Source of the DNA: Myxococcus sp.
GTDB lineage: Bacteria; Myxococcota; Myxococcia; Myxococcales; Myxococcaceae
Assembly (NCBI GenBank): GCA_014879945.1
Contig: JACSRE010000229.1
Coordinates: 1-34,940 of the forward strand
DNA length: 34,940 nucleotides
Direction: 5' to 3'
Below, in pieces: positions 736 through 2,789 of this stretch. The number at the start of each line of letters is the position of its first letter. The stretch's first letter is position 1. The notes below the pieces were generated by a model, which saw only the letters and a program-made list of their open reading frames with translations, had not been told where the DNA came from and searched no databases. Both the position numbers and the translations under genes were made by a program.

Positions 736-1649
736 GCGCGTTGGACGAGCGAGGCGTCGTCGCTGTGACATGCCTGGGCCTCGCTGCGCTGGGCGAGGTG
801 CCGGGTGAGGGCGCGCAGCTTGTCGGGGTTCACCACCGTCGACACCGAGTACACGCGCTCCCCGTCGGTCTCGAGCTGCGAGACGCCCACCACGACGTCG
901 CCCTCGAAGCTCACCACGCTCGGCCACCCGTTGACGTCGAGCAGCTCGTAGCGCACCGAGAGGGGCTGCTTCTTCGCCACGCCCACGAAGAACCTCGCGA
1001 CCCGGTTGGCGCCCGTCACCACGTTGATGGCCGCGCGCACCTTGCCGCCGCCGTCGCTGCTGACGGTCGCGCCGGCGACCAGCAGCTGCTCCAGCGCGGC
1101 GACGTCGCCCGTCATGGCCGCGCCGAAGAAGGTGCCGAGCATCGACTCGTGCGCGACCTTGTCGGGCGCGAAGCGGGGGCGGCCGGTCTGCACGTGTTCA
1201 CGCGCGCGGTGGAGGAGCTGACGCACCGCCGCGGGCTCGCGCTGCAGGGCCTTCGCGATGTCGTCATGTGAGTAGTCGAACGCCTCGGCCAGCACGTAGA
1301 CGGCGCGCTCGAGCGGCGAGAGGCGCTCGAGGAGCGCGAGGAAGGCCAGCGACACCGCCTCGACGTCGAGCGGCTCGGTCTGCACGGCCGAAGACGCCAT
1401 CGGCTCGGCCAGCCACGGGCCGACGTACTCTTCACGGCGCACGCGCGCGCTCTTGAGCACGTCGAGGCAGCGGTTGGTCGTCACCCGCTCGAGCCACGCG
1501 CGCTCCGAAGCCAGGGGCGTCGCGTCGCGCTCCAGCCAGGCCAGGTGCGTCTCTTGAACGACGTCTTCGGCCTCGGCCCAGCTGCTCAGGAGCCGGTAGG
1601 CGAGGGCCAGCAGGCGAGGCCGGTGGGCCGAGAAGGTGTCGGTCGTCAT
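732..1649 (-). CDS. ECF41-family RNA polymerase sigma factor with SnoaL-like C-terminal domain
   Basis: A 305-residue ECF sigma factor. Residues 1-65 form the sigma-2 region (HRPRLLALAYRLL, AEAEDVVQET) and about 95-155 the sigma-4 region (SPLERAVYVLAEAF, then a helix-turn-helix). The fused SnoaL/NTF2-like C-terminal domain spans about 165-285. Three group signatures are visible: WLAEP (79-83) in the linker for the usual WLPEP, DGGGK (199-203), and NPDKL (274-278). In ECF41 proteins the fused domain replaces a separate anti-sigma factor and both represses and supports activity. The ATG at 1649 is chosen because the family N-terminus begins there and GAGGGG lies upstream; the same frame is open much further upstream, but that stretch is antisense to the peroxidase. 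ECF41 genes usually sit beside a carboxymuconolactone decarboxylase, oxidoreductase or epimerase gene; here the partner is a cytochrome b. Confidence 0.95.
   Translation of the reverse strand: MTTDTFSAHRPRLLALAYRLLSSWAEAEDVVQETHLAWLERDATPLASERAWLERVTTNRCLDVLKSARVRREEYVGPWLAEPMASSAVQTEPLDVEAVSLAFLALLERLSPLERAVYVLAEAFDYSHDDIAKALQREPAAVRQLLHRAREHVQTGRPRFAPDKVAHESMLGTFFGAAMTGDVAALEQLLVAGATVSSDGGGKVRAAINVVTGANRVARFFVGVAKKQPLSVRYELLDVNGWPSVVSFEGDVVVGVSQLETDGERVYSVSTVVNPDKLRALTRHLAQRSEAQACHSDDASLVQRA
744..770 (-). promoter_or_regulatory. ECF41-type promoter before the cytochrome b gene
   Basis: On the minus strand TGTCACA (770-764) is followed by exactly 16 bases and then CGTC (747-744). This is the -35/-10 pair I recall for ECF41-dependent promoters. 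It lies inside the 3' end of the sigma factor gene and 8 bases before the cytochrome b ATG at 735, so the transcript would have a leader of only a few bases or none. Confidence 0.75.
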
Positions 1650-1664
1650 CAGCACACCCCTCGA

Positions 1665-1691
1665 GACGACCGCGCGGCGCCGCCTGTGACA
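1665..1691 (-). promoter_or_regulatory. ECF41-type autoregulatory promoter
   Basis: On the minus strand TGTCACA (1691-1685), a 16-base spacer and CGTC (1668-1665) lie 15 bases upstream of the sigma factor ATG. The spacing is identical to the element at 744-770. ECF41 sigma factors are known to drive their own or adjacent genes from this motif. GAGGGG at 1662-1657 could serve as ribosome binding site in the short leader. Confidence 0.85.
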
Positions 1692-1772: not shown

Positions 1773-2789
1773 ATGCGCCTCACGCTCGCCATCATCACGC
1801 TGTTCGCCGCCGCCGCACAGGCCGACGCCATGCTCGACGCAGCGAAGGGCAGCTTCAAGCCGCTGCCGAAGCAGTACGACTCGAAGGAGAACCCCATCAC
1901 CGCCGACAAGGTGGCGCTGGGCAAGCTGCTCTACTTCGACACGCGCCTGTCGAAGAACCACGACGTCTCGTGCAACAGCTGCCACGACCTCGCGAAGTAC
2001 GGCGTCGACGGCGCGCAGTTCTCGACGGGCCACAAGCAGCAGCTGGGCGGCCGCAACTCGCCGACCGTCTACAACGCGGGCAACCACATCGCCCAGTTCT
2101 GGGACGGCCGCGCCGCGACGCTGGAGGAGCAGGCCAAGGGCCCGGTGCTCAACCCCGTCGAGATGGCGCACAAAGACGCGGCCGCGGTCGAGGCGATGCT
2201 GAAGTCGATCCCCGGCTACCCGCCGCTGTTCGCGAAGGCCTTCGGCGGCAAGAAGGACTCGGCCGTCACCTTCGACAACATGGCGAAGGCCATCGGCGCC
2301 TTCGAGCGCACGCTGGTGACGCCGGGCCGCTTCGACGCCTGGCTGGGCGGCGACGAGAAGGCGCTCACCGACGCCGAGAAGAAGGGCATCTCGACGTTCA
2401 TCTCGGCGGGCTGCCTGGGCTGCCACATGGGCGAGGGCGTCGGCGGCGCGATGTACCAGAAGCTCGGCCTCGTCATCCCCGTGCCCGGGCTGAAGGACCT
2501 CGGCCGCTTCGAGGCGACGAAGAACGACGCCGACAAGTTCTTCTTCCGCGTGCCGACGCTGCGCAACGTCGCGAAGACGGCGCCCTACATGCACGACGGC
2601 TCGGTGAAGACGCTGCCCGAGGCGGTGACGTTCATGGGCAAGCACCAGCTCGGCAAGGACCTGAAGAAGGACGAGGTGGACTCCATCGTCACCTTCCTGA
2701 ACGCGCTGACGGGAGAGCTCCCGAAGGACATCGCGCCGCCCAAGCCGCTGGCCAGCGGCCCGAAGACGCCCAAGCCTGACCCGTCGTAA
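1773..2789 (+). CDS. Di-heme cytochrome c peroxidase (CcpA/MauG family)
   Basis: A 338-residue periplasmic di-heme peroxidase that reduces hydrogen peroxide with electrons from small cytochromes. A signal peptide covers about residues 1-19 (MRLTLAII..AAAAQADA). The two c-type heme sites are CNSCH (67-71) and CLGCH (214-218). Other family marks are GKLLYFDTRLS, the GGRNSPTVYNA segment, FWDGRAATLEEQA and the late APYMHDGS motif. Length is normal. GGGAG at 1761-1765 lies 7 bases before the ATG. It is divergent from the ECF41 sigma factor gene (123 bases between starts), which suggests a shared redox or oxidative-stress role, though I see no ECF41 motif pointing toward this gene. Confidence 0.93.
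   Translation: MRLTLAIITLFAAAAQADAMLDAAKGSFKPLPKQYDSKENPITADKVALGKLLYFDTRLSKNHDVSCNSCHDLAKYGVDGAQFSTGHKQQLGGRNSPTVYNAGNHIAQFWDGRAATLEEQAKGPVLNPVEMAHKDAAAVEAMLKSIPGYPPLFAKAFGGKKDSAVTFDNMAKAIGAFERTLVTPGRFDAWLGGDEKALTDAEKKGISTFISAGCLGCHMGEGVGGAMYQKLGLVIPVPGLKDLGRFEATKNDADKFFFRVPTLRNVAKTAPYMHDGSVKTLPEAVTFMGKHQLGKDLKKDEVDSIVTFLNALTGELPKDIAPPKPLASGPKTPKPDPS

Follow-up and report, generated by a model that had tools for sequence, protein, structure and literature searches.

A putative two-promoter ECF41 regulon with a di-haem cytochrome b target in Myxococcus

The window analysed here, a stretch of 34,940 nucleotides (nt) from Myxococcus sp. (assembly GCA_014879945.1, contig JACSRE010000229.1), carries a gene for an extracytoplasmic function (ECF) sigma factor of group ECF41, followed by a gene for a predicted di-haem cytochrome b, and in front of each of them a copy of the putative ECF41 promoter motif TGTCACA-N16-CGTC, referred to below as P1 (sigma gene) and P2 (cytochrome gene). 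An earlier note on this DNA had drawn attention to the motif pair and to the position of the second copy inside the sigma coding sequence, and both observations hold: the two 27-mers are present on the minus strand at the positions given in Table 1, and P2 falls entirely within the sigma open reading frame (ORF), in the tail beyond the NPDKL signature. No other exact copy occurs in the window, where 0.09 would be expected by chance, and none of 100 shuffles of the window contained two. TGTCACA occurs once more, at 15810-15804, but lacks a suitably spaced CGTC, again in agreement with that note, and no sigma-70-like promoter was found in the region.

Table 1. Features of the sigma-cytochrome b locus; coordinates are positions in the window, written in the direction of the strand.
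Feature	Position	Strand	Remarks
P1, putative ECF41 promoter motif of the sigma gene	1691-1665	-	TGTCACA 1691-1685, CGTC 1668-1665; 27-mer TGTCACAGGCGGCGCCGCGCGGTCGTC
Predicted P1 start site	1656	-	9-nt calibration from S. meliloti; annotated ATG at 1649, in-frame GTG at 1655-1653
ECF41-group sigma factor gene	1649-732	-	305 residues; sigma2, sigma4, C-terminal extension with DGGGK and NPDKL
P2, putative ECF41 promoter motif of the cytochrome b gene, within the sigma coding sequence	770-744	-	TGTCACA 770-764, CGTC 747-744; 27-mer TGTCACAGCGACGACGCCTCGCTCGTC
Predicted P2 start site, A of the cytochrome b AUG	735	-	9 nt after CGTC by the S. meliloti calibration (PMC3616915)
ATGA shared by the sigma stop and the cytochrome b start	735-732	-	4 nt; would permit translational coupling on a long mRNA
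Gene for orphan complex-II-type di-haem cytochrome b (best guess)	735-67	-	222 residues; invariant H25, H67, H107, H152
Divergent MauG/di-haem cytochrome c peroxidase gene	1773-2789	+	neighbour in 3 of 7 loci

Six full-length relatives of the cytochrome (48-73% identity) were retrieved from 144 related genomes. Each has an ECF41 sigma gene upstream, in the same orientation, and the conservation figures given here refer to these loci (L019-L024) together with the window, seven in all. TGTCAC[A/G]-N16-CGTC precedes the cytochrome gene in all seven, the last -35 base being G in L022, and pairwise identity amounts to 96% in the -35 box and 100% in the -10 box, as against 45% in the spacer and 36% in the 40 bases upstream; a CT before CGTC and an A before TGTCAC are likewise invariant. 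With respect to the sigma gene, P2 lies inside it in phase 0 in the window and in phase 2 in L020 and L022, straddles the stop codon in L021, follows it immediately in L024 and by 8 nt in L019, and in L023 stands 1,725 nt past it, behind an intervening 458-residue ORF, where it remains with the cytochrome gene; measured from the sigma stop, its start thus falls between -40 and +1725 nt. The sigma protein tail beyond NPDKL measures 3 to 27 residues, with dissimilar sequences and no conservation, and the cysteine codon TGT used within P2 makes up 10% of Cys codons (30 counted). Since the motif sits in differing frames or outside the sigma gene, and the tail protein is unconserved, coding constraint cannot explain the conservation of P2, which was the check that the earlier note had proposed for the second motif.

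Between CGTC and the cytochrome ATG lie 8, 8, 9, 8, 9, 9 and 8 nt in the seven loci, the sole fixed distance among them. For the ECF41 promoter of Sinorhizobium meliloti, the motif lies 9 nt upstream of the mapped transcript start (PMC3616915), and the printed promoter sequence ends 9 nt past CGTC (PMC6180224). With this offset, P2 transcripts would start exactly at the AUG where the gap is 8 nt (four loci) and one base ahead of it where the gap is 9 nt (three loci); the 8-9 nt gap and the published offset together therefore predict that the P2 mRNA is probably leaderless, beginning at the cytochrome start codon, on the assumption that the myxobacterial polymerase has the geometry of that of S. 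meliloti. On the same calibration, the second start is best placed at 735, rather than at about 738 as previously proposed, and the first at about 1656. The short promoter-AUG distance is special to the cytochrome-linked branch, because elsewhere in the family 24-29 nt separate ECF41 promoters from the start of Pyr_redox_2 targets, and about 30-47 nt from that of decarboxylase targets; a purine-rich, Shine-Dalgarno-like run moreover precedes the Pyr_redox_2 target starts.

P1 is exact in the window, L019 and L024, is present in six of the seven loci if one mismatch is allowed, and lies 9 to 26 nt from the sigma start. Autoregulation of the sigma gene is likely, as judged from these motifs, but appears to be kept less strictly than control of the cytochrome gene, and it is not universal, because P1 is missing in L020 and carries a one-base change in L021, L022 and L023. 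Of the two motifs whose alignment across orthologous loci had been suggested as a check, only P2 is therefore fully retained, and the identical spacing claimed for the pair is a property of the window and not a general one, the P1 spacer being 17 in L019.

The sigma protein scores above the cut-off for both Pfam Sigma70_r2 and Sigma70_r4_2 and for NF007214 (SigJ; 289 bits, cut-off 271), and below it for TIGR02957 (SigX4; 302 bits, cut-off 323). Its C-terminal extension, formed by the residues after about 153 and carrying DGGGK and NPDKL, gave no match to the Pfam SnoaL domain. All three group signatures named in the earlier note are found in the ORF, WLAEP being a one-residue departure from the WLPEP of the group, which the six orthologs carry. 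The protein thus has the sigma2 and sigma4 domains, linker motif, C-terminal extension of about 100 residues and promoter before its target by which ECF41 members are recognised, and departs from the group in the adjacent COE gene (decarboxylase, oxidoreductase, epimerase), whose place is taken by the cytochrome b, as the earlier note had remarked. About 30% of ECF41 factors have no COE neighbor, so that a cytochrome b partner is compatible with membership (PMC3426412).

In a tree of 28 ECF41 proteins of the myxobacterial family, the seven cytochrome-linked sigmas form one clade (support 99/96) with a sister clade (98/96) of seven sigmas whose partner is a pyridine-nucleotide oxidoreductase (domain verified in one case), and the remaining fourteen stand apart (100/100), those examined adjoining carboxymuconolactone decarboxylase genes. 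The sister loci (L130-L134, L136 and L138) resemble that of the window in their sigmas (50-54% identical) and in the motif, there with TGTCACG, but differ in that the motif, at a distance of 24-29 nt, precedes the start of a Pyr_redox_2 enzyme gene that lies upstream of the sigma gene. In one myxobacterial genome, two tandem ECF41-type promoters (L038:1501-1528 and 2064-2091) each stand before a decarboxylase-like ORF, a sequence arrangement that suggests duplicated target genes.

The cytochrome protein has no Pfam match, and its assignment relies on a structure model (predicted local distance difference test, pLDDT, 72; predicted template modeling score, pTM, 0.67) and on four histidines, H25, H67, H107 and H152, placed one per helix and invariant in the seven loci. 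The closest structural matches of the model, with Z values of a kind that helical bundles inflate, are 1qlb_C (Z 12.4), 9lay_C (Z 12.1) and 5xmj_C (Z 11.5), the first two over about 200 residues and all other rows at or below 7.4, and the Foldseek top five are all subunit C of complex II. H152 aligns with H182 of Wolinella succinogenes FrdC, a haem ligand. The protein is accordingly predicted to share the five-helix fold and the four helix histidines with di-haem subunit C of complex II (FrdC, TIGR02046), whereas it falls below the TIGR02046 cut-off and, unlike that subunit, has no adjacent sdhA or sdhB, neither being recognised in the flanks of the six orthologous loci. In the window itself the contig ends 66 nt past the cytochrome gene, and the true sdhC-sdhA pair of this genome is located elsewhere, on contig C206. 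Our best guess from the model is an orphan, stand-alone di-haem, quinone-linked cytochrome b of the complex II type, which would carry electrons to or from quinone.

Comparable modules have been characterised in other bacteria. ECF41 promoters were shown by rapid amplification of 5' cDNA ends (5'RACE) and by reporter in Bacillus licheniformis and Rhodobacter sphaeroides (PMC3426412), and the Ecf41/COE modules of these two species share with the window TGTCACA-n16-CGTC, the WLPEP linker motif (WLAEP here), a regulatory C-terminal extension, the lack of an anti-sigma gene and an adjacent target gene; their mapped target mRNAs have 22/23-nt leaders with a ribosome-binding site, whereas the target mRNA of the window is predicted to be leaderless. 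The partners described for ECF41 are decarboxylases, oxidoreductases and epimerases, with the order sigma-then-target in 14% (PMC3426412), and in 53 loci with the order sigma then COE the motif was found before the sigma gene in 14, before the target in 24 and before both in 20% (Wecke et al. 2012, PMC3426412). The S. meliloti pair RpoE9 (ECF41)/SMb20029 likewise has a single target operon, with the motif 9 nt before the mapped start (PMC3616915, PMC6180224), but its target is a decarboxylase-family protein encoded upstream of the sigma gene. A literature search for a cytochrome b target of ECF41 returned no report, its one match concerning a cytochrome that is a target of RpoE1/RpoE3. The kind of module is thus known, whereas for ECF41 we found no precedent for the cytochrome b target class or for the predicted leaderless geometry.

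Together, these data support a model of a small, self-amplifying ECF41 regulon made up of the sigma gene and the cytochrome b gene. P1 would yield more sigma mRNA, with transcription continuing into the cytochrome gene across the overlap of sigma stop and cytochrome start, and P2 would yield a separate monocistronic mRNA, starting at AUG and translated without a Shine-Dalgarno leader, for the membrane-bound complex-II-type di-haem cytochrome b; the latter would be the output of the module, replacing the usual small redox enzyme. We consider this two-promoter model, with its leaderless P2 mRNA and cytochrome b output, probable, and infer promoter activity, the leaderless start and autoregulation from sequence comparison. 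A more far-reaching proposal, that this ECF41 branch changed both target and mode of translation, to a free-standing di-haem quinone-linked cytochrome b with a non-Sdh partner, made from a strictly leaderless mRNA and in addition by coupling from the sigma mRNA, is more doubtful and put forward tentatively. Several points weigh against the model. The seven loci are related, and all six orthologs come from metagenome-assembled genomes; P1 is incompletely conserved, as described above; the cytochrome stays well below its nearest family model (TIGR02046, the SdhC b558 family; 36 bits, curated cut-off 96) and its fold model is moderate; leaderless translation in myxobacteria was not found documented in the papers searched; and L023 has an in-frame GTG further down that is a possible alternative cytochrome start.

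Other readings of P2 have to be set against these data. It might be real and its mRNA not leaderless, with a start a few bases earlier (at about 738), a very short leader, or the long mRNA as the main template for translation; ECF start sites do vary by a few bases, three loci have the 9-nt gap, and the calibration is taken from an alphaproteobacterial RNA polymerase. We nevertheless regard this as unlikely, as the distance to the AUG is fixed where every other distance varies, and the other ECF41 targets of the family keep their 24-47 nt, with Shine-Dalgarno-like runs before the oxidoreductase starts. The chances are remote that P2 is kept only as code for the sigma C-terminal tail, with P1 as the one promoter of a sigma-cytochrome b operon in which the ATGA overlap allows the second gene to be expressed: such a reading suits the window, L020 and L022, where the sigma gene contains the motif and shares 4 nt with the cytochrome gene, but not its occurrence in two coding phases, its positions across (L021), against (L024), 8 nt past (L019) or 1.7 kb past (L023) the stop codon, the unconserved tail, or the lack of P1 in L020. 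More remote still is the reading of the conserved ATGTCAC as the start codon of a cytochrome b 12 codons longer (M-S-Q/H...) rather than as a -35 box. Although the A precedes TGTCAC in all seven loci and the ATG is in frame with the cytochrome where the gap is 8 nt, a gap of 9 nt, as in three loci, puts this ATG out of frame, the downstream CTCGTC is equally conserved, and this A is also found before the motif at carboxymuconolactone decarboxylase promoters and in S. meliloti.

The role of the cytochrome could also be read differently, as that of a sensor or signaling partner of the sigma factor rather than its output. The tight pairing of the two genes would fit, as would a weak relative from Granulosicoccus fused to ferredoxin-like and adenylate-cyclase-like regions (by eye), which indicates that this cytochrome type can occur in signaling proteins; yet the ECF41 partner enzymes of B. 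licheniformis and R. sphaeroides had no signaling role when tested (PMC3426412), and the window cytochrome has no extra cytoplasmic domain, so that we hold a sensor role to be very improbable.

On the more far-reaching proposal above, the stress output would bypass Shine-Dalgarno initiation, with translational coupling from the sigma mRNA as a second route to the same product. The constant gap of 8-9 nt yields a sharp and cheap prediction of leaderless translation in myxobacteria. For ECF41, which is among the most widespread ECF groups, a branch whose one clear target is a membrane redox protein narrows the question of signal and physiological role, and the locus offers a specific two-promoter regulon open to test. 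P2 is furthermore a clean example of a promoter inside a gene, conserved independently of frame as a regulatory site anchored to the start codon of the next gene.

As to the extent of the regulon, only one clear ECF41 factor is present in this genome, and the six other motif copies (spacer 14-18) lie in or over open frames, with no start codon at a promoter-like distance bar one. With this single factor, and with the other exact copies not promoter-like, one possible case aside, a two-gene regulon is a reasonable estimate. The motif alone is insufficient to define the regulon, because relaxing the last -35 base (spacer 15-17) gives 14 matches here and up to 45 in relatives. An exact TGTCACA-N16-CGTC is found at L006:305-331 (contig C202 of genome G000), near the contig end and 52 nt before a UvrB-like ORF (MADFKLVSQYTPQGDQPRAI), where it may mark an extra ECF41 target or have arisen by chance.

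As far as these collections go, the sigma-cytochrome b pairing is lineage-restricted: when 84,980 species genomes were scanned with a pattern-based search, the matches were again the six ortholog contigs, all of them labelled as metagenome assemblies of Myxococcales, Archangiaceae, Archangium or Myxococcaceae, together with a single, distantly related fusion protein. No relatives were found on plasmids. Other myxobacteria gave weak cytochrome matches, and none of those checked (part of L088 to L096) adjoins an ECF41 sigma gene. At L088:1480-2508 (minus strand), in another genus, a distant relative of the cytochrome domain belongs to a longer ORF in which additional membrane segments are predicted (by eye), and the stretch read contains no ECF41 gene. 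The same is true of the only match outside the group, from Granulosicoccus (L064:5001-6701), a 566-residue protein in which a cytochrome relative (29% identity) is joined to a 2Fe-2S ferredoxin-like region and an adenylate cyclase domain (by eye), possibly a haem- or quinone-sensing cyclase.

Finally, besides the window only L019 and L020 have the divergent MauG-type gene next to the sigma gene (81-86% identity), and no ECF41 motif is oriented towards it. The product of this neighbor in three loci is a candidate electron partner for the cytochrome b.
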